Origin: Bdellovibrionales bacterium
Lineage (GTDB): Bacteria > Bdellovibrionota > UBA1018
Direction of reading: 5' to 3'
DNA: 64,000 bases
NCBI GenBank assembly: GCA_016786465.1
Contig: JAEUWC010000003.1
Span: 1-64,000, forward strand
The notes beneath the pieces are model-generated. The model was given only the letters and a program-made list of their open reading frames with translations, was not told the origin of the DNA and made no database searches. Numbering within the stretch: position 1 is the stretch's first letter; every line of letters starts with the position of its first letter. A program made the translations under genes and the position numbers. This document shows, in pieces, positions 4,132-58,817 of the stretch.

Positions 4132-7100
4132 ATGAAACTGAAGTGGTCGTTTCGCCATTACCTTTTGAGCACCCTCGCCTGCCTGGGAATGTCCCAAGCC
4201 TGGAGCGACAAAGTTCACCCATTGGTGGAAACCGCCATGGTCATTAGTGCCGGCCTGTCCGAGCAAGAAGGACGCTACTGGCAGTATCCCGAGAATCTGC
4301 GACTGAACCCACGACTTCCCGAATTCTTTCGCGCACGACAGGTTCAAGAGCTTCAGGAACAGATCGACGAAGAACTGAGCAAATCCAAAGAAAAGATCAC
4401 CTACAAAGTCACTGAGCAGGATCTGACCGTTTTTGAAGATCGTTCGGCGGGTGGATTGGGCCTAGAAGGGGTGCGTCGCCTTTTGATGAGCCTCAGGCAG
4501 GCCATTCACAAGCATTCCGAAAGCGTCACGTCCAAGAGCTCGGACCTGGGGCTTGCCCCTTTGGTTCGGGCATCCGTCATTTACATGGGGATGCTGTACC
4601 GAATGCATCTTCTCTTTGCCCGTGCTGCTTACAACACCGTTCAGATGGATCTGGATCCGGAAGATATTCGTGGAAAAATGTCGCCACAGATTCTGCAATT
4701 CAGCTGGGAACAACTGGACGCTAGCTTGGTGGTTTCTCGCCGGGCAGGTCTGCTTTTGATCGGAGAACTTGCTGAATTCAAGGTGCCTACGAAAGCGCGC
4801 CACTTGAACAACGGCGACAGTCCGAATCTGGATATTGAATTCGTATTAACGGAAGAACAAAAACAGTTTGCGGAATTCCTGGTTCTTTCAAGGGACCCGT
4901 CGGACTGGACATTGGATTTTTTGAATTCAAGAACGGGAACCGGAAAGTACAACACCGAAGAAATGAGCCGGGATCAGAATCTTTATTCTTTCCGGACGCC
5001 GGAAGCCTATGCGCGAATTCTTCAATTCGTTGCGATTCGAGAATCCTTGATCAATCGATATTCGCTGAATCGGATGTTTGAAACACCGGTCGCGGAAAAA
5101 TCGGTTCAGTACTGTGGCCCCGGTTTCCTGTCTTTGCGTCCTGAAGAAGGTCTGGTTCGAAAAAGCGCTGCTTATCAGGAATTGGCCGCCAACGATCGCT
5201 GGAACGTCTTTAATGAAAAGCTTCCGGACCTGAACAAACTGGTTAGCGACCGCCCGATCTTCAGCCCGCAGCAGTCTGGAAAGCTGATCGTCGATTTTGC
5301 GGCTTTGCACCAAAAAGAAATCAGTCTTGAAGATCAAGACACCTACGACATGGAACTTCTGGCCATTGGACAAAAGAACGTTCAGGTCGAAAACGCCCTT
5401 TTCGATGACAAGCGCGAAAGTATCGTGAAGCTCAGTTCCCTGAATGGCGACAACTTGGAAACGGATTTGGTCGCCCAACGCTTGGCCAATATTGCTTTTC
5501 GTTTTCGCGCTGATGCCCATAAAAAGGTGATTCGAGAGAACTTGATGAAGGATACGCCTGCATTGAAGGCGCAGGATATCGATGCGTTTTTGGACAAGGC
5601 CCTGAAAAAGAAAAAGGCAGGGTACATCGCGGCATTGAAGGAAGCATTGAAAGCACCGTTGGCTGAAATGAGCAAGCAGACCAGTCCAAAGCAGATTGCA
5701 ACCGAAGCTTACGAAAGCAAAATCAATCAGCTTCGCAAGGCGCTAGCGGCATCCGGGCCAGCGGCGTGGGAATTGATGAAGATCAAAAGCATGAGCGTGT
5801 CGGACAAAAGAAAGCCGGTATCGGCCTTGTACCGAAACCAGATCAATGATCCGGCGTTTTTGAAAATGTTCTTCGATGCAAAGAAGAATGACCACGAAGT
5901 ATTCGCCAAAGCGTGGAGGCACAAAGAAATCGTCGCCGAAGTCGATGCATTTTTTGGAGAAATCACGCGCCGCTTTGAAAATGCGCCTGAACCGGATCCA
6001 TCGACTGGGGTGGAAAAATTGGCCCAAGTCGTTTCAGAAGTGGCCACTGAATATGCGAATCAGTATCCCTATGACCGCATCGGTGTTCAGCTTAAAGAAG
6101 CCAGCTATGTGAAGGTCGACGGCGTTCGGGTCGAAAATCCGAAGCTGACCGCTTACGATAAGCGCAAGATTTACACGATGGAAGAGGGCTTTGACGCCGT
6201 ATTCAAGGCGTTGAATATCTTGCCCCGCAAAGTCAGCAAGGAAATCGAAGTGTATGATCCGAAGCTGAAGAAGAACGTGAAAAAGTGGAATGAAAGCTGG
6301 GCTGTGAACATCAAGAAGAACGCAGCGTTCACGCCGACCTATAATGATCACGAACTTCTGAACAGCTTTATCGTTGCATTGGCAGAAAAAGGAAACGTTC
6401 TTCTTGGATCGACTTGGCAGGTAAACCCTTATCAGAACCCGTATCTGAGCGATGAAGGCCCGTCGCAGTACTATGGATGGGGCCGCCGCAGTCACTATGA
6501 AATGCGAGACCATTCAGTGGTTCAGCAAGTCGGAATCTTTGCTTATAATCCAAACACCGGCGCGCTGGACGACGCAGTGGTTCGCCGAATATTGAAGACT
6601 GCTTTGAAAAAAGCGCATACGGCTGCAGGTGGTTTGGTTGAAGATTTCTGCGGAATCAATCCGTTGATGTACGCAACAAGTGATCAGTTCGGAAAACTTT
6701 TTCACGCAATGTCCGGAACTCGCGCAGCCTTGGCCAATGGCAACCGCGAAATCACGATGATGGATATGGAAATGTCGAAGCACTTTCGCACCACTGCTGA
6801 AAAGATTCAGCAGGATATCATTGCGCCGATGTACGGAAATATCGGGATGCTTCTTTTGGTTGGAATTGCAATCGGACTTTTGACTCCGGTCGTTCCGATG
6901 TTGGCCCCGCTAGCGGCGGCATTTACGTGGTCTACGGCCAGCGGTGTGATCCTGAATTCATCTTTCGTGGCCATGGCGACGCTGAACTTAGCTTTTAATA
7001 CGACGACTAAGCTGATCGATGCCCCTGCGCGTGCGGCTTACACGACCCAAGTCGCGCAGTCTCAGGTCGGCGACGGCGAAACGATTTCCAGCTGGTCGGC

Positions 7101-7389
7101 GGTTCGAGCCGAACGTGCGCAAGTTGAAAAAGGCGTGAAGACCTGGGCGATCACGTCGATCATGGAAGTTTATGCGGTGGCATCGATGGGACCCAAAGCT
7201 TTGTCTGCTTTGAAAAAACTTTTTCCTGCCCCGACTCAGGTCACGTTTTCGGTTCAGCCCGGGCCCGTGGTCGGTGGCGTTTCAGATTATTCGGGATACC
7301 GAGTGACATCCAAACTGGAAGACAAGCTCAAGGCCTTTGGTGGTTACATCAAGCGTTTAGGCAAACCGAAACCGAATCCAGGCTACTAG
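4132..7389 (+). CDS. Large exported protein of unknown function (1085 aa)
   Basis: A signal peptide is clear (residues 1-25, KLKWSFRHYLLSTLACLG then AWS). The protein is mostly charged and helical. Near the C-terminus, around residues 900-960, are two hydrophobic stretches (MLLLVGIAIGLLTPVVPMLAPLAAAF and a second alanine-rich one), so the C-terminus may be membrane-anchored. AAGAGAGA a few bases before the ATG can serve as ribosome binding site. No known domain is recognised. Its end overlaps the convergent chrA gene by 33 bp. Other exported proteins in this window (9511-10701, 28267-29595) also combine a signal peptide with late membrane segments, but I cannot show homology. Confidence 0.8.
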   Translation: MKLKWSFRHYLLSTLACLGMSQAWSDKVHPLVETAMVISAGLSEQEGRYWQYPENLRLNPRLPEFFRARQVQELQEQIDEELSKSKEKITYKVTEQDLTVFEDRSAGGLGLEGVRRLLMSLRQAIHKHSESVTSKSSDLGLAPLVRASVIYMGMLYRMHLLFARAAYNTVQMDLDPEDIRGKMSPQILQFSWEQLDASLVVSRRAGLLLIGELAEFKVPTKARHLNNGDSPNLDIEFVLTEEQKQFAEFLVLSRDPSDWTLDFLNSRTGTGKYNTEEMSRDQNLYSFRTPEAYARILQFVAIRESLINRYSLNRMFETPVAEKSVQYCGPGFLSLRPEEGLVRKSAAYQELAANDRWNVFNEKLPDLNKLVSDRPIFSPQQSGKLIVDFAALHQKEISLEDQDTYDMELLAIGQKNVQVENALFDDKRESIVKLSSLNGDNLETDLVAQRLANIAFRFRADAHKKVIRENLMKDTPALKAQDIDAFLDKALKKKKAGYIAALKEALKAPLAEMSKQTSPKQIATEAYESKINQLRKALAASGPAAWELMKIKSMSVSDKRKPVSALYRNQINDPAFLKMFFDAKKNDHEVFAKAWRHKEIVAEVDAFFGEITRRFENAPEPDPSTGVEKLAQVVSEVATEYANQYPYDRIGVQLKEASYVKVDGVRVENPKLTAYDKRKIYTMEEGFDAVFKALNILPRKVSKEIEVYDPKLKKNVKKWNESWAVNIKKNAAFTPTYNDHELLNSFIVALAEKGNVLLGSTWQVNPYQNPYLSDEGPSQYYGWGRRSHYEMRDHSVVQQVGIFAYNPNTGALDDAVVRRILKTALKKAHTAAGGLVEDFCGINPLMYATSDQFGKLFHAMSGTRAALANGNREITMMDMEMSKHFRTTAEKIQQDIIAPMYGNIGMLLLVGIAIGLLTPVVPMLAPLAAAFTWSTASGVILNSSFVAMATLNLAFNTTTKLIDAPARAAYTTQVAQSQVGDGETISSWSAVRAERAQVEKGVKTWAITSIMEVYAVASMGPKALSALKKLFPAPTQVTFSVQPGPVVGGVSDYSGYRVTSKLEDKLKAFGGYIKRLGKPKPNPGY

Positions 7390-8442
7390 TCCGCCGATTC
7401 CGACGGTTGCCCAGCTGGGAAGTCGAAGGGATGCCGCAGTTAAAAGGGCCAGCACCACGGCCTTGTCGATCGACTGTATCGAAAACGTCGTCAATTGCCA
7501 CCAGGTCGCCAAGATGGATCCGATCACTGCTGGAATCGCGCCGCTGGTGAAAGCGGCAAAAGCGGGCTTTCCGCTAACACGGTCCCAGATCCTAGGAGCA
7601 ATCACCAACATCAAGATGAAAGCGGGAAGAAAAATGCCCAGGGTTGCTACACATGCTCCGACCCAGCCCGCCACTTGATATCCTAAGAAAGTGGTCGTGA
7701 TGATCACCGGGCCAGGCGTAATCTGACCCAAAACCAAGCCGTCCAAGAACGTGGACCTGGAAAGCCACTGGGTTTTCTGAACAAATTCGCCTTCAAGCAA
7801 AGGCACGATGGCTAGACCCGTTCCAAACGTGAATGCGCCTGCCTTGATGCAAATCCAAAAAAGGGTCAACACCATCCACGGATCGGTTCGCAGAAATTTT
7901 CGTCGAACCAGGTAAGAAACCAGCATGAAGATTCCAGACCCGACGATCAAGGCGGGTTCGTGACTGGGGTAGCGACTGATCCAGTAAAAGGCGATCGCGC
8001 CAATAGTCCAAGAAGTCGGACTTTTGATTTCTGGCTTGGCCATGCGCAAGGCCGAAACCAAAATCAGGGCCAATGCACCGATTTGAAGTCCGTGTACCGT
8101 TTCCTGAATCAGGGGTTGCGAGATGAACCCAGGGGGAAGCGAACTGTAACCAGCGCTCAGCGCTAGCATCAAAAAAAACGCCGGAAGGAAGTAGGCTAAA
8201 CCAGCAGCCAAACCCCCCGCTGTGCCGGCGCGAAGTCTTCCCACTTGAATCGAAACCAAGGCACCGACGGGTCCGGGCAAGGCTTTGCAAACGGCGGTGA
8301 TTTCTGAAAATTTTGCTGCTGGCAGCCATTTCAGTTTTTTGACGGTTTCTTGCTCGATCATGGCGATCAAGGCCAGGGGGCCGCCAAACCCCACGGCACC
8401 GATTTTCACAAAAACGGTGAAGACTTCCCGAAATCCCGACAT
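7357..8442 (-). CDS. chrA: ChrA-type chromate transporter
   Basis: This 361-aa integral membrane protein of the CHR family is the long form, with two homologous halves. The first half starts with the family signature around FVKIGAVGFGGPLALI and has the conserved ALPGPVGA loop. The second half repeats the pattern at IKAGAFTFGTGLAIVPLLEGEFV and QITPGPVIITTTFLGYQ. The family exports chromate, probably in exchange for sulfate or with protons. I chose the ATG at 8442 because the frame upstream of it codes for an unlikely polar sequence. The 3' end overlaps the convergent 1085-aa gene, so one transcript may affect the other. Confidence 0.88.
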   Translation of the reverse strand: MSGFREVFTVFVKIGAVGFGGPLALIAMIEQETVKKLKWLPAAKFSEITAVCKALPGPVGALVSIQVGRLRAGTAGGLAAGLAYFLPAFFLMLALSAGYSSLPPGFISQPLIQETVHGLQIGALALILVSALRMAKPEIKSPTSWTIGAIAFYWISRYPSHEPALIVGSGIFMLVSYLVRRKFLRTDPWMVLTLFWICIKAGAFTFGTGLAIVPLLEGEFVQKTQWLSRSTFLDGLVLGQITPGPVIITTTFLGYQVAGWVGACVATLGIFLPAFILMLVIAPRIWDRVSGKPAFAAFTSGAIPAVIGSILATWWQLTTFSIQSIDKAVVLALLTAASLRLPSWATVGIGGLVAWIRFRFA

Positions 8443-28266: not shown

Positions 28267-29595
28267 GTGAACTTTCGTTTACCCCTTCTTTTGATCCTGA
28301 CCTTCTGGACCCTTGAAGGACCTGCGTTTGCCAATCCCGATTGGGACGATTTGGCGAATATGCGGGATCGCGACGTCGAATTTTCAATTCGGCTGATGGC
28401 CAAGTACCACGCGATCGTTCAGCGCGGAGATCGCATTCAATTTGATCCAGGTTCGGACACTGCCGCGAACGAAATTTCTGAAAACTACGCAACCTTGATC
28501 GACGAATGGATCAAGACCAATAAGATCGCAAGCGAAGCTTCCAAGAATCGAATTCTAGGGCTTCGAAAGTACCTTCCTTTCCAATCCATTGCGAAGCGCT
28601 TTCATCGCGTGGGGGCGTTTGTTCGTGAATTTTACCGTCAGCACGGACCGGGATACCTTTTGCTTTTTGCCGTTTTGGAAGCCGTCAAGCTGGGCGGAGT
28701 CTTTGCGTCTGCCGAGTATCTGGGACCCGAACTGAAAACGATCATCGCTTTCTTTCCGTCTAAGCCGGTTGTGGGATTGGTTTGGCTTGCCGTTCAGTTG
28801 AAGCAACGCCGCGAGATCATTAAAGCCTATGGTGGAAATCTAGCCTTCAACGAAGCAATGCAGGCTGAAAAGGATGTTCGAAAAAGATTGGACCCCCCGT
28901 CGGCTTCAGATCTTTTGATCCCGCTTCGGATTCACGGGGAATACTGGAAATCCATTTTGGTTTCGGATTCGGGTGCGATCAAAAGATTTTTTTCGTTTCT
29001 GGGATTGGGGAAAATTTCTTTGAATCTAAGCGATTTGAAGACCTTCGTGATCGAAAAGAAATTGGAACATCCCGACTTGGATCTGATCTGGCAAGACGGG
29101 GGCCTAAGCGACGCGGTAAAGACGGCGCTATCAGTTCAGTGGATCTATAGCAGGCCTGACCGCGACGAATGGTCGTCAGAATTTCAGATTCGTTTTGGCG
29201 ATCTGTTTCGCGATCAACTGGTTCCGGGTGAATTACCATCGGTGGTCTATCAATGGGCGTTTCGGGCTAGGTATTCCAGAAATCTGAAAGAACTGGTGGA
29301 TTCACTGGAACTTCTTGAAGGCCAGGGGGTGCCCACTTTTGTTATACTGACCTTGTTTAAGGACCTAATCGTTCCGGACCTGGCCCGGGGCACGGCCTTA
29401 AGTCGCAAAGAAATCGCGGTCTTGGTGGGGCCCGACTTTCGCCGACTCCGGGTCGAATCCGATTTGAAAAAGGGAATGTGGAACCGCGAGTGGACGGATC
29501 GCATCAGGAATCACTTGATCCAGCCGGAACCGGAACTGAGCGCGGACCGGCCCTTATTTAATTCCTGCCAAGGTAATTTCCTGGAATATCCATGA
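28267..29595 (+). CDS. Exported/membrane protein of unknown function
   Basis: This 442-aa protein has a GTG start and a signal peptide (LPLLLILTFWTLEGPAFA). A moderately hydrophobic region lies near residues 128-178 (GYLLLFAVLEAVKLGGVF, TIIAFFPSKPVVGLVWLAVQL). The rest is charged helix. No known domain is recognised. It follows the SGNH-like gene by 30 bp on the same strand and may be co-transcribed. Confidence 0.65.
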   Translation: MNFRLPLLLILTFWTLEGPAFANPDWDDLANMRDRDVEFSIRLMAKYHAIVQRGDRIQFDPGSDTAANEISENYATLIDEWIKTNKIASEASKNRILGLRKYLPFQSIAKRFHRVGAFVREFYRQHGPGYLLLFAVLEAVKLGGVFASAEYLGPELKTIIAFFPSKPVVGLVWLAVQLKQRREIIKAYGGNLAFNEAMQAEKDVRKRLDPPSASDLLIPLRIHGEYWKSILVSDSGAIKRFFSFLGLGKISLNLSDLKTFVIEKKLEHPDLDLIWQDGGLSDAVKTALSVQWIYSRPDRDEWSSEFQIRFGDLFRDQLVPGELPSVVYQWAFRARYSRNLKELVDSLELLEGQGVPTFVILTLFKDLIVPDLARGTALSRKEIAVLVGPDFRRLRVESDLKKGMWNREWTDRIRNHLIQPEPELSADRPLFNSCQGNFLEYP

Positions 29596-29750: not shown

Positions 29751-30062
29751 ATGAAAAAGAATATTTCCCCTCATTTTCACTTCTTCCAGGCGTTATCGAT
29801 GGCCATTCCTTTGGCCCTTGCCCTGGCAGCAGCATATGGATCGATGGCTGAAGCCGGGCGCGAAGGAAGTGCGCTTGTGAATCGAATCGAACAGCAAAAC
29901 CAGGTTTACCTAGCGAAAAACGATACGACGGCATCTGCGGTTCGTAATGCCGAGATCATCACCGGCGACACCATCACGGAAACTCAGGCAGCTTCGGAAG
30001 AAGCGGCTCAGGTTTCGTGTAACGGTGACGCTTGTGTTTCGGTTCAAAGTCCTGGGCAGTAG
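29751..30062 (+). CDS. Small exported protein, unknown
   Basis: This 103-aa protein has a signal peptide (LSMAIPLALALAAAYGSMAEA). The mature part is polar, threonine- and glutamate-rich, with two cysteines (SCNGDACVS) near the C-terminus. A perfect AAGGAGGT at 29739-29746 and a consensus -35 promoter suggest high expression. Its end overlaps the convergent SelO-fusion gene by 19 bp. Confidence 0.75.
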   Translation: MKKNISPHFHFFQALSMAIPLALALAAAYGSMAEAGREGSALVNRIEQQNQVYLAKNDTTASAVRNAEIITGDTITETQAASEEAAQVSCNGDACVSVQSPGQ

Positions 30063-33000
30063 CGAAGAAAGGCGCATCTGCATCGGTTGTAAAGACTTGG
30101 ATCTTTGACTTTGCGCGGACCTATCGAGCCGTCCAGAATCATCGAGGCTTGACTTAGGTCCGCGTCCAAACCTTGCCATTTTTCATTTTCAAGAACACCC
30201 GTGATTCTGGGAGTGATCAGGTTTTCAATTCGGATAATCGACTGAAAGCGGTCCTGGGTCGCTTTCAAAACAGTTTCGGCATCCTTCGCCCCTTGGATGA
30301 TCTGATCCGGCGGTACAAAGTGGGATCCATCCAGGCGCCTTTGATCATTTCGTTGAAGCGCCATTTCTAGCGGTGCTTCGATGCGAATGTTTTGCATCAC
30401 CGCCTTGGGTGCTAGCTTTGCCATTTCGTCCAGCTGCAAAAGCGTTCCATTTAAATTTCTAAAACTTCCTTGAACAATGATGTTCTTTCCGGCGCGCAAT
30501 GCATCCACGACCAAGGCCCAAGCTTGATTCACGCTTGGGTAATGCATCAGATCAGCCGCATATGCAGGATCACTGCTTCGGGCATAGGTCGGAGCCTTCA
30601 ATGTAAAGAGATCTGGGTCGATGACGACAAAGTCCTTCACCTGAATTCCACCTTCTTCGGCCAGCAATTTCAGAACGGTCGACTTTCCAGACCCCATGGT
30701 TCCGGTAATCCAAAGAATTTTTTGAGTGCTTGCAGTGGGGGCGTTATCGATCAGTTTCTTTCGGGTTGCCTGATACACGGCTTCATCTTCGGGTTGGATT
30801 CCCAGCTGCCCAAGTTCAGCATCCCGCGCCCAAATTCCTTTGAAGGATTCTGCGTTTCGGGCTCGGGTCGCGTAGGATTGGGGTGACTGGTTCAGATAGT
30901 GCCAGTGATCCAATTCGCGGTTTCCGCCAAAATACCCTAGATGGGTGCCTTCTTCCTTGGTCGTAGAAAGCAAACTTCCCTTTTCTTCCCAAGGAAGCTT
31001 TTCAATTTCATTTGCTAGTTTGTCGATTCCATTCTTTCCAAGCGCCTTGTAGATATGTGAATCCGCGTTGGAAATGTCCAAGGTCGACACGGACAGATTC
31101 TTCGAATTCAGTTCATTGTGAACCACCTTTAAGGCTTCATCATCGACCAAGCTTCCTTGGATGATCGCAAAGCTTCCGCTTTGCGCCCGTTTCCGAAGTC
31201 GCTGGTAAAGTTCATCAGAACCTAGAATCGTGTCTTTCCAGGTGTGATTCGACTGAAAGCGATCAATCGCGGCGTATCCCCACTGACTTTTTGGATCGAA
31301 AAAATCATGCACGAATGTCGCAGTGGCAGGGTCACGGCTGATATTGGTCTTGGCTTCTTGGTAAGTTGTCTTCAGCTGCTGGATGAATTCGTCTTCTGAC
31401 CATTCGGCTTTGGGTTTCCAGGTTCGATAGCCCGGAGCTTCTCCAAAGAAAAGCCGGGCCAGGAATTCGCGGCGGCTAGGTATTTCTGCGGATAACTTCA
31501 ACGCCTTTTGATTCAGCTGGCAGACCTTTTCATCAAAATCCAAAAAGATTCCCAGCTTGAAGTCGCCCACGGCGAAAGCGTTCAGTGCTCGAAATGATCC
31601 GACACCGATGTACGCGCCTGTCTTCTTTTTAAGCTGGTGATAGAAAAGATCAGGGCGGAATTCGTTGGGCGCCATTCCGTTGCCTTGGGAAATCCCATGG
31701 CCCGCGCGGATGATTGGGGCCAGGCCACCGGTACGATTGGCTAAGGTTCCGACCGTGGACGCATTCTGATCCGCGTTTCCAGTGGCCAGTTGCAAGGTCT
31801 GATCGATCAGGCTTCGAACCAACGATGCGTCGCCTGATTTTTCATAATCAGCAATGACTTTGAAATTCGCATCCATGGCTTTCCATCGATACAGTTCAGG
31901 GTGCGGGGCATTTAGTTTCTTTGCCCGATCGACAAAGGCTGGATTAGCCGTCGTTTTTTTCATCAACGCCAGGTAGCCTTGGGCCAGGGTTTGTCGCCAT
32001 TTGGCGAACTGGGTACCAGGAATGTATCGCGCCAGCGTGTTTTCGATAGCAGTTGGTCTTCCTTGGGTTGTTGCTAGGTCGACAAACAAAGCGTTCACAT
32101 CAAATTTTTGAAGTTTTTCAGGCACCGTATAGCGGGCTTTTACTTTTTCAGACCCATAGTCCGCTAGTTTCGCTAGTTCGTCGCCCAGTTTGCGAATCTC
32201 GGGGTCCGAAACCAGATTTTGGGCTTCTTTGCGATCGACTCCAAGCAGGATGATGAATTCCTTGGCCACGGATTCGGAATAGCGACTGCGAAAAGTTTTT
32301 TCTGAAAGATTCGGTTCCGGAAAGAACTTCTTCAGATTCTTTGGGACGGTTTCTTGGACTTCTTCGATGAAGTCGTGAACCAGGGTTTCGATGAATTCGC
32401 TGATTTCTCCGTTTTCTTGAACGTGATCTAGAACCTGAATGCGTCCGTAGCCGGGTTGGGCTGTCATCGTGCCAAAATCAATCATTCGCCCAGTCAGTTC
32501 GATATTCGATTGGCTGGTGGCGCCGTGGTACATGCGGTTGGCGTAAAGGTAAGCGTACTGTTCTGCGATTCTTTGAATGTAAATCTGAAGGCCCTGGCGA
32601 ATCTTGTCGCCATCAGAAAGCCCGGACGGCAGGTCAAAGATTTTACCTAGGGTTTTGGCAAAGTATTTACCCGTGGCGACCAGTCTTGCCGGTTCGCTTT
32701 TTTTCATTTTTTCACCGCTCCCAAAAGGGGACTTCATGAAATGAGCCGGCCGCAGCGAACTTTCGCGAATCACAAGAACATCTTTTTGAACCGTTCCGCC
32801 GCCGAGCTGGGTCCAAGTTCCACGATCAATCAGCGCCAGCACGCGGTTACTTCCGTGCGGTGTTCCTTGATTCACCTGGGACCAGATGACTTCACGAATG
32901 GCTTCTTCAATTGGGACGGTTCCGTTTGAATGGCTTTTTCCCTGGGTTTCTCCGACCAGGGTTGTCGCCCCCAGTCCCTTGATTTGAATTCCGCCTTTTT

Positions 33001-33367
33001 CGGCGGCGCGACCGCTTCCCCAGTTTTCACCAATTCCGGTGCCGCCGTAACGGTCGGCATAGACGGTTGCCGTTTCTTCGGTAAAGGCGCTGGGCGCGTC
33101 CGTTGGGTTTGGAATTCCCCACGCGAAAGCATCCAAGATGTCCTGGTCTTTTTCACCGGCCAGTGAAGGATGAACCCAAAGCAGTTTGGGATGGGCCAAT
33201 CTTTTTGCGGTATGAGCGATGTACGATTCTTCGGGAAGTGTTTTCCCGATGCTGGCGGGCTTTCCTTGAGCAAGATCCCGGACGCCCTTTCCCGCAAGGA
33301 CCGGGGTGGGCGAAAAGCCAAGCGGCAAGGTCAGCGAAAGGGTTAGGACTAAAAGACGGACGATCAT
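30044..33367 (-). CDS. Exported SelO-like AMPylase domain fused to a P-loop kinase domain
   Basis: This protein is about 1107 aa from the ATG at 33367; a GTG at 33394 adds 9 residues, and the numbering here uses that GTG. The signal peptide ends near TPVLA at residue 34. Residues 95-330 carry SelO (YdiU) motifs: YGGTGIGENWGSGR, IQIKGLGATTLV with K139, EEAIREVI, then HG at 290-291, N297 and DFG at 306-308, matching the HG..N..L.G...DYG nucleotide and metal site. SelO transfers AMP from ATP to proteins. The C-terminal part has Walker A GTMGSGKST at 898-906, with VIDPD and NIIVQGSF, like zeta-toxin or chloramphenicol-phosphotransferase-type kinases. The middle (about 550-880) is unassigned. An exported two-enzyme protein suggests an effector acting outside the cell. 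Confidence 0.75.
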   Translation of the reverse strand: MIVRLLVLTLSLTLPLGFSPTPVLAGKGVRDLAQGKPASIGKTLPEESYIAHTAKRLAHPKLLWVHPSLAGEKDQDILDAFAWGIPNPTDAPSAFTEETATVYADRYGGTGIGENWGSGRAAEKGGIQIKGLGATTLVGETQGKSHSNGTVPIEEAIREVIWSQVNQGTPHGSNRVLALIDRGTWTQLGGGTVQKDVLVIRESSLRPAHFMKSPFGSGEKMKKSEPARLVATGKYFAKTLGKIFDLPSGLSDGDKIRQGLQIYIQRIAEQYAYLYANRMYHGATSQSNIELTGRMIDFGTMTAQPGYGRIQVLDHVQENGEISEFIETLVHDFIEEVQETVPKNLKKFFPEPNLSEKTFRSRYSESVAKEFIILLGVDRKEAQNLVSDPEIRKLGDELAKLADYGSEKVKARYTVPEKLQKFDVNALFVDLATTQGRPTAIENTLARYIPGTQFAKWRQTLAQGYLALMKKTTANPAFVDRAKKLNAPHPELYRWKAMDANFKVIADYEKSGDASLVRSLIDQTLQLATGNADQNASTVGTLANRTGGLAPIIRAGHGISQGNGMAPNEFRPDLFYHQLKKKTGAYIGVGSFRALNAFAVGDFKLGIFLDFDEKVCQLNQKALKLSAEIPSRREFLARLFFGEAPGYRTWKPKAEWSEDEFIQQLKTTYQEAKTNISRDPATATFVHDFFDPKSQWGYAAIDRFQSNHTWKDTILGSDELYQRLRKRAQSGSFAIIQGSLVDDEALKVVHNELNSKNLSVSTLDISNADSHIYKALGKNGIDKLANEIEKLPWEEKGSLLSTTKEEGTHLGYFGGNRELDHWHYLNQSPQSYATRARNAESFKGIWARDAELGQLGIQPEDEAVYQATRKKLIDNAPTASTQKILWITGTMGSGKSTVLKLLAEEGGIQVKDFVVIDPDLFTLKAPTYARSSDPAYAADLMHYPSVNQAWALVVDALRAGKNIIVQGSFRNLNGTLLQLDEMAKLAPKAVMQNIRIEAPLEMALQRNDQRRLDGSHFVPPDQIIQGAKDAETVLKATQDRFQSIIRIENLITPRITGVLENEKWQGLDADLSQASMILDGSIGPRKVKDPSLYNRCRCAFLRYCPGL

Positions 33368-33407
33368 CCTTCTCTTGTCGGATTTTGGGTTCACTCAGTT
33401 GAGCGGG

Positions 33408-33670
33408 TTGCAGGTGTCGGAAGTCTGTCGGATTTGTGCGGCGATGCCGGTCGGGATCTCTCTGTGCAGGTGTCGGAAGTCTGTCGGATTTGTGCGGCGC
33501 ACCCAGGATTCGGGACCGCCGACCCACCGCCGTTGGATTTCCGACACAGTTCCGACAACTGAACAGAGGGGGCGGGGGCGACGCGTCCTTGGATTTCCGA
33601 CACAGTTCCGACAACTGAACAGAGGGGTTAGGGGCGTCCCGCCCTTGGATTTCCGACACACTTCCGACAG
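33408..33670. repeat. Cluster of five TGTCGGA-type repeat units (locus A)
   Basis: Two forward units (33410-33435 and 33462-33491) and three reverse units (33535-33566, 33591-33622, 33647-33670) share the core TGTCGGAAsTsTGTCGGA, most with a CTGTkCAG flank. Each unit is two TGTCGGA copies 11 bp apart. A further half-unit (TTGTCGGATTTTG) lies at 33375, inside the start of the SelO-fusion gene. The cluster fills the 325-bp gap between divergent genes. Opposite orientations allow a large stem. Confidence 0.85.
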
Positions 33671-33692
33671 GACTCGTGATAATTTGCTAGCC

Positions 33693-33998
33693 ATGAGCAA
33701 CAACTTCGATCCCACCCAAGTCGCAACACCTGATCAACGCCTGGATTTCGACGATCACACTTTGAATCGCGATTACTACATTCGCCTAGCCAAAGAAAAA
33801 GGCGTGTCCTACGCGATCACCGAGCTTCACCACGAAAAAGAGAAGCTTGAGCACGCGACCTTTGAAGGCGACAAAGGATACCGCCCTGAACTTTTCGAGC
33901 GCGTGCAAGAATACGCCGCTTTTTCACGCGAGCTTTGGGATATCGCGCTGGATTCGGAATCAATCGAACGCAAGGATTGGGAAAAGCGTCCCGGCTAA
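33693..33998 (+). CDS. Small cytosolic protein, unknown
   Basis: This 101-aa acidic helical protein has no signal peptide or recognised motif. It starts at an ATG 23 bp after the last repeat unit. The reading frame also runs upstream through the repeats, but that part is not coding-like. No strong Shine-Dalgarno is seen. Codon use matches the neighbours. Confidence 0.55.
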   Translation: MSNNFDPTQVATPDQRLDFDDHTLNRDYYIRLAKEKGVSYAITELHHEKEKLEHATFEGDKGYRPELFERVQEYAAFSRELWDIALDSESIERKDWEKRPG

Positions 33999-34002
33999 AG
34001 GC

Positions 34003-34437
34003 TTACGGAATGCGCTTGGCTTTCACCAAGCCTGCTTTTTCCAAAGCCCGCGCAATGCTGACTAGCTTCAATTGGGCCGCACCGGTGTCGCGTGGCTGAA
34101 TCGCCTGGGTCAAAGTATCTTTAATTTCCGCGGCCGTCTGCGGGCGGCAGTTTTTCAGCCAGCGATCCGTCACGTCTTGTGCGTAAGGCTTGATGGCGTA
34201 AGCAACGGTTCGCGCTGAAGGCGATTTGCCGATGACTTCGGCCAATTCCATGTCGGGAAGTTTCATGACATCTTCCCAAGTCATCATCATCGCCAAAGCT
34301 TTTTGCGTATAATCCGGATCTTCTTGCATGCCGACGTCGATCATTTTCTGTCTGCGCGACATCGGTGTGGATTCGAGAAGTTCAACAAGTTTACGAAGAC
34401 CCGAAGGGTCTTTTTTGAATCTGGTGTAGACGCCCAT
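34003..34437 (-). CDS. FliG C-terminal-domain-like protein
   Basis: This protein is about 144 aa (150 with the GTG at 34455). Residues 40-110 match the FliG C-terminal pattern: MMTWEDVMKLPDMELAEVI (FliG: MF.FEDi..LdD..iq..l), a small gap region (SARTVAYAIKPY, like dLALALKga), then WLKNCRPQTAAEIKDTL (like fl.NmS.R.a..l.edl). FliG-C is the torque-generating part of the flagellar switch. The N-terminal and middle domains, which bind FliF and FliM, are absent. It may be a paralogue with a role outside the motor. The start is uncertain. Confidence 0.6.
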   Translation of the reverse strand: MGVYTRFKKDPSGLRKLVELLESTPMSRRQKMIDVGMQEDPDYTQKALAMMMTWEDVMKLPDMELAEVIGKSPSARTVAYAIKPYAQDVTDRWLKNCRPQTAAEIKDTLTQAIQPRDTGAAQLKLVSIARALEKAGLVKAKRIP

Positions 34438-34465
34438 AGATGCATAATCATACACTCTTTTTCAG

Positions 34466-58624: not shown

Positions 58625-58817
58625 CCCTGTGCAGTTGTCGGAACTGTGTCGGATTCTGGCGGATGCCCCACGGGTTGCGCTCCCTGTGCAGCTGTCGGAA
58701 CTGTGTCGGAAATTGGGCCGTCAGGTGGGGTCCGACAGACTTCCGACAACTGCACAGAGTGATCGGACACACCTGCAGGCCGCCCAAGTCCGACAGACTT
58801 CCGACAACTGCACAGGG
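58625..58817. repeat. Cluster of four TGTCGGA-type repeat units (locus B)
   Basis: There are two forward units (58625-58655 and 58682-58714) and two reverse units (58730-58758 and 58788-58817). Each has CTGTGCAG followed by TGTCGGAAsTsTGTCGGA. The forward units are followed by reverse ones, so the whole locus can fold as a large stem. It fills the gap between convergent genes. The same unit recurs 25 kb away at 33408-33670. Confidence 0.88.

Follow-up and report, generated by a model that had tools for sequence, protein, structure and literature searches.

A divergent, exported SelO-like protein fused to a DUF7790 domain and a zeta-type P-loop kinase in Bdellovibrionota

The stretch of DNA analyzed here, called the window, comprises positions 1 to 64,000 (64,000 nt) of contig JAEUWC010000003.1 from a Bdellovibrionales bacterium. 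On its reverse strand lies a gene for a 1116-residue protein in which a predicted signal peptide is followed by a SelO-like pseudokinase domain, a DUF7790 domain, and a P-loop kinase domain of the zeta/polynucleotide-kinase group. It fits best among SelO-like proteins, as a divergent and exported one with a new fusion; to call it an AMPylase or a zeta toxin would go beyond what is proven. Our preferred proposal, which we consider about as apt to be right as wrong, is that it is a Sec-exported three-domain enzyme that is secreted and moves adenosine monophosphate (AMP) to protein, with the other domains modifying a second target. The features of the gene are as follows.

30044..33394 (-), whole gene for the exported three-domain protein of 1116 amino acids; a continuous open reading frame, stop codon included
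33290..33394 (-), predicted signal peptide, residues 1-35; judged from composition by eye and from similar N-termini in relatives
31790..33280 (-), SelO-like pseudokinase domain, residues 39-535; from a profile against PDB SelO entries, hhalign, and AlphaFold2
32471..32527 (-), catalytic loop and DFG-like motif, H290 to G308, including N297 and D306; aligns with SelO HGVMNTDN...DYG
30851..31672 (-), DUF7790 domain (PF25046), residues 575-848; conserved YIGVGS, FLDFDE, and LDISNA
30200..30739 (-), zeta/Pnkp-type P-loop kinase domain (PF06414), residues 886-1065; profile matches to Pnkp1, PezT, and zeta
30677..30703 (-), Walker A motif GTMGSGKST, residues 898-906, read directly; G and K invariant among relatives
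30047..30088 (-), C-terminal cysteine tail NRCRCAFLRYCPGL, residues 1103-1116; a tail cysteine is common to exported SelO-like, DUF7790, and zeta-like proteins

The reading frame starts with GTG and is unbroken. All motifs quoted in an initial annotation of the gene could be read in it directly, namely IQIKGLG (with K139), H290-G..N297..D306-FG, the Walker A sequence GTMGSGKST (with K904), VIDPD (D926/D928), and IIVQGSF. The domains that this annotation described (signal peptide, SelO-like domain, and C-terminal P-loop kinase) are borne out by the results below, and the third domain that it suspected in the middle region proved to be DUF7790 at residues 575-848, flanked by linkers. An assembly artefact is unlikely, since the gene is a single continuous 3.35-kb frame in a 251-kb contig and composition does not step abruptly at the junctions. 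Because relatives of its N-terminal half, with 27-46% identity, occur in nine other genomes among the 58 searched with the whole protein, the gene is more than a product of chance.

SelO enzymes are normally cytosolic or mitochondrial and consist of a single domain. A direct search with the Pfam SelO model (PF02696) hit neither the window protein nor anything else in its genome, and because the protein gives no match over the cut-off it is filed as SelO-like, not SelO. With this model silent, the assignment draws on three other sources: relatives, comparison of profiles, and fold. The cut-off of 22.8 bits is passed by the relatives at loci L002 (28.8) and L003 (25.7), and also by the more distant relatives L051, L054, and L055. 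A profile of nine family members matches Pseudomonas syringae SelO (PDB 6eac; 2.7e-5) and, at about 7e-4, YdiU entries, and profile-profile alignment (hhalign) against a canonical SelO of the same phylum gave 98.7% probability over 335 columns. An AlphaFold2 model of residues 36-545, made from a nine-row alignment that included no canonical SelO, reached a predicted template modeling score (pTM) of 0.82 and a mean predicted local distance difference test score (pLDDT) of 76.9. The initial annotation had suggested a comparison with SelO structures; the best Foldseek match of this model is SelO/YdiU (9.8e-11), as are all the best matches, with Z scores of 22.7-26.0 over ~415 residues, and the next other family reaches 10.7.

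In the profile alignment, SelO residues K113, E136, R176, R183, N253, and D262 correspond to K139, E168, R210, R215, N297, and D306, respectively, with the pairing of R210 and R215 the least certain. The roles of R176, R183, N253, and D262 in binding adenosine triphosphate (ATP) and metal have been described (PMC8097203), and K113 and E136 belong to the SelO active site (PMC3281104, and general knowledge of SelO). Alignment and modeled fold together establish a SelO-like pseudokinase in which the predicted ATP- and metal-binding residues of SelO are kept. No cysteine occurs before residue 625, and the redox cysteine pair and the C-terminal cysteine/selenocysteine tail of SelO are absent from the domain. 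The SelO-type AMPylase of the initial annotation therefore stands in part: the fold agrees, and N297 and D306 align with metal-site positions, but the domain falls outside the canonical SelO clade. Given that placement (below Pfam detection, no cysteine, no cysteine/selenocysteine tail), AMPylation is plausible but unproven.

The middle domain matches PF25046 with 1.4e-21 (77.6 bits against a cut-off of 23), and a second search returned the same coordinates. Its motifs YIGVGS (G597), FLDFDE (D619), and LDISNA (D773 and N776) are intact and are conserved among 14 relatives. In our reading, their order (a glycine loop, an acid after the next strand, then D-x-S-N) appears to resemble that of a methyltransferase-type Rossmann domain. 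The domain matches PDB 6ulo weakly (phmmer 0.0022) and is related to the LIC_10091 family of Leptospira. DUF7790 is otherwise an exported or lipoprotein family, and the genome carrying the window encodes a separate exported DUF7790 protein (L020). A single-sequence structure model of residues 555-1116 was discarded (pLDDT 37).

At the C-terminal end, PF06414 (Zeta_toxin) matches the kinase domain with 4.6e-9 (36.4 versus 22.3 bits), and a profile that includes five relatives matches Pnkp1, PezT, and zeta toxin at 8e-9 to 2.3e-8. The Walker A motif is present and D928 occupies the position of zeta Asp67. Because the Zeta_toxin model matches all 14 of the 14 control genomes, the PF06414 match marks a fold group and not a substrate. 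The zeta-toxin-like kinase named in the initial annotation holds as a P-loop kinase of the zeta/polynucleotide-kinase group, but not in two zeta active-site residues: the acid of the E-G-T motif, kept in four of five kinase relatives, is replaced by Gln975, and the arginine of the GR.VP lid, kept in all five, by His1025. Among the neighboring genes, none is recognizable by Pfam as an antitoxin. With the two residues replaced and no antitoxin recognized beside the gene, action on uridine diphosphate (UDP) sugars is a guess. Viral contigs scanned with the kinase gave no match, and a role in anti-phage defense was set aside, as matches were at the level of the P-loop only.

Several kinase relatives (L011, L012, L018, L093/L159, and L095/L161) also start with signal-peptide-like N-termini. 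In three such exported zeta-like kinases, at L011:1240-2532 (+), L018:1270-2880 (+), and L161:1049-2278 (+), a HAD/NIF-like phosphatase region follows the kinase. Pfam matches a NIF-type HAD phosphatase in L018, and a similar region can be seen by eye in L011 and L161. These three would place a kinase-phosphatase pair outside the cytoplasm.

Export of the window protein is indicated by its N-terminus, where a basic n-region, a hydrophobic stretch, and a cleavage-site-like junction between PVLA and GK (RRMIVRLLVLTLSLTLPLGFSPTPVLA, then GK) can be read by eye. An alternative start, ATG at residue 10, also gives a complete signal peptide. Most relatives begin with similar signal-peptide-like sequences, also judged by eye. 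The predicted signal peptide, a claim of the initial annotation, looks classical in kind.

Relatives of residues 13-535 are separate proteins, mostly ~630-880 residues long. A search with a five-row alignment returned eight named loci, from Bdellovibrionales, Oligoflexia, and Bdellovibrionaceae metagenome-assembled genomes plus one Duganella, and these relatives agree with the Bdellovibrionota context assumed initially. With the SelO-like profile, strong matches (E < 1e-30) were found in 8 of the 35 genomes of the family, including that of the window; weaker matches across the phylum (108 of 369 genomes at E 0.001) are a mixture of canonical and intermediate SelO. The tree places the window protein inside a 16-row clade (98/95) whose rows are all exported except Duganella. 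Canonical SelO and a ~620-residue group that carries no signal peptide are placed apart from it. The window protein is thus one member of what these placements and predicted signal peptides mark as an exported SelO-like clade of Bdellovibrionota. DUF7790 proteins and zeta-like kinases also occur in this phylum as separate exported proteins.

Members of the group of ~620 residues were found at L062:64-1908 (-), L064:601-2475 (-), and L163:887-2749 (-). The gene immediately upstream in L062 and L064 seems to encode a conserved protein of the ATP-grasp type. Among the exported SelO-like genes, L016:1411-1986 (+) is truncated and L071:5839-6447 and 6505-7932 (+) appears to be a split copy; these are possibly decaying paralogues or sequencing errors.

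If the window protein acts as we propose, it would be secreted and would work where ATP or nicotinamide adenine dinucleotide (NAD) lies outside the producer, whether in a prey cell, a host cell, or lysing neighbors. Its SelO-like domain would transfer AMP from a nucleotide, flipped as in SelO, to a protein side chain. The DUF7790 and kinase domains would modify a second target or small molecule, and the role of the C-terminal cysteine would lie in trafficking or anchoring. The initial annotation had likewise imagined an effector that modifies host or prey proteins and wall precursors; the export signal in that idea is found, whereas the effector role and AMP transfer are steps that we infer, and action on UDP-sugars is no more than a guess.

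A number of observations weigh against this proposal. Ser296 replaces the aspartate that precedes N253 in SelO, and in the kinase the replacements by Gln975 and His1025 add to this. The same three-domain order, which the initial annotation had suggested looking for in other Bdellovibrionota, was not found in the 58 genomes searched with the whole protein, in the 369 searched with the SelO-like profile, or in the 192 searched with DUF7790 and the 192 searched with the kinase. Genome contigs scanned with the whole protein gave no match, and the long open reading frames L156 and L083, considered as second examples, do not repeat the order when inspected by eye. No secretion system or immunity gene was seen among the neighbors of the gene, and no conserved operon was evident by eye in five relatives. 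The periplasm, moreover, contains little ATP.

Some of these points would also suit a different history, in which the SelO-like and kinase domains are catalytically dead and now serve for binding, the fusion having arisen recently and by accident in a single lineage. That Ser296, Q975, and H1025 stand in place of expected residues fits such an origin, as does the single example of the fusion. Yet even very divergent relatives retain K139, E168, N297, and D306 of the SelO-like domain and K904 and D928 of the kinase, and the DUF7790 motifs are intact. We regard this account as quite improbable.

A second alternative is that the protein is exported but retained by its producer at the periplasm or cell surface, where it would modify envelope proteins of its own cell or scavenge nucleotides, with no effector role. 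This seems to us improbable, in that the phylum exports several families of nucleotide enzymes, whose usual substrates, to our knowledge, do not normally occur in the periplasm. In its favor, the signal peptide is the one feature that supports export, no secretion genes lie beside the gene, and a relative of DUF7790, LIC10091, has been described as potentially a lipoprotein of the outer membrane (PMC2935396).

Chemistry on NAD is the main rival to the proposal of AMP transfer to protein. In a second exported group, on a different branch of the tree from the window clade, an exported SelO-like domain is joined to a NadD-type nicotinate/nicotinamide nucleotide adenylyltransferase, at L158:1958-4312 (-) and L055:1378-3720 (+). 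TIGR00482 matches these two at 9e-24 and 3.2e-20, respectively, both under the equivalog cut-off of the model. NadD-type domains act on the same metabolites as NAD cleavage by SelO, which has been reported to hydrolyze NAD to nicotinamide mononucleotide and AMP (PMC13391479). The exported SelO-like family could thus act chiefly on NAD or related dinucleotides and not on proteins, with the zeta-like kinase phosphorylating a nucleotide as AvrRxo1, a secreted zeta-fold effector, does NAD (PMC5491322). Complexes of YdiU with NAD also rank among the best structural matches of the AlphaFold2 model, but these are merely copies of the same fold. Moreover, the reported NADase activity requires the C-terminal CSS tail of SelO (PMC13391479), which the window domain lacks, and the NadD fusions belong to that other branch. 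On balance, we judge an NAD-directed function to be unlikely.

The tail NRCRCAFLRYCPGL of the window protein holds three cysteines, and exported proteins of the SelO-like, DUF7790, and zeta-like families, three unrelated kinds of domain, commonly have a cysteine between a few and ~20 residues before the C-terminus, with a short tail after it. Often it is the only cysteine of the mature chain. Examples are L002, L003, L020, L055, L077, L084, and L156-L159, while the homologs L062, L064, and L163, which have no signal peptide, have no such cysteine. The feature is present in 35 of 39 of these exported proteins (31 of 35 plus L156-L159) against 22 in a sample of 110 proteins from the genome of the window to which a crude caller assigned a signal peptide (Fisher 8.5e-15, with many of the 39 related by descent). 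The pattern was noticed first and counted afterwards, and the more independent units are the ~7 domain architectures. A wider version, in which every exported protein of this genome would have a cysteine at its end, was rejected, as single-cysteine C-termini are not enriched among sampled exported proteins.

It is possible that the cysteine is a sorting or anchoring tag. More broadly, and with considerable doubt, we suggest that Bdellovibrionota send out a range of nucleotide enzymes with unrelated folds (SelO-like, DUF7790, zeta-like, and NadD fusions) and that a single cysteine near the C-terminus is their common, unrecognized sorting, anchoring, or secretion tag; the window protein would join three of these enzymes.

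The neighbors of the gene in the window give no hint of its function. The gene at 28267-29595 (+) encodes a protein of no recognized family with a signal-peptide-like start and the tail FNSCQGNFLEYP, which has a lone cysteine near the C-terminus. Directly upstream of the 30044-33394 gene lies a repeat element composed of TTCCGACA-N3-TTCCGACA units at ~56-nt spacing and in both orientations, which occupies window positions 33409-33695 and 58636-58806. There are nine copies of the repeat in the window and 38 in the genome, and a reversed control gave 0. At 34003-34455 (-), a 150-residue protein consists of a stand-alone FliG C-terminal domain, with no flagellar gene seen nearby.

A phylum-wide clade of exported SelO-like proteins with varied partners provides natural fusions with which to test whether the target of SelO is protein or NAD, at a time when NADase activity has just been reported for SelO. 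Should the shared cysteine prove to be a genuine tag, it would give a handle on which exported proteins travel together in Bdellovibrionota. Our literature search found no paper that links SelO to Bdellovibrio or describes exported fusions of SelO, and a survey from 2012 considered the small number of multidomain SelO proteins to be likely annotation artefacts (PMC3281104).

Compared with known systems, the window protein shares with SelO/YdiU (PF02696; 6eac, 6iii, 6lna, and 9l29) the fold of the whole domain and the Lys, Glu, Arg, Asn, and Asp residues of the active site. It differs in being exported, fused to two domains, and under the Pfam cut-off, and in having a serine before the loop asparagine, no cysteine pair, and no C-terminal cysteine/selenocysteine tail. 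With the LIC_10091 lipoprotein family (DUF7790; PF25046, NF047518, and PDB 6ulo) it shares a domain over the Pfam cut-off and an exported setting, but here the domain sits between two other enzymes and scores 39.9 bits against an equivalog cut-off of 350. The P-loop kinase fold group, the Walker A motif, and the catalytic aspartate (D928) are common to zeta toxin/PezT and Pnkp (PF06414; 1gvn, 2p5t, and 4xrp), whereas the window kinase is exported, has no recognized antitoxin, and carries Gln975 for the acid and His1025 for the lid arginine. AvrRxo1 is type III secreted and has no SelO or DUF7790 domain; it nevertheless provides a precedent, in another organism, for a secreted zeta-fold kinase with a small metabolite as its substrate (PMC5491322).

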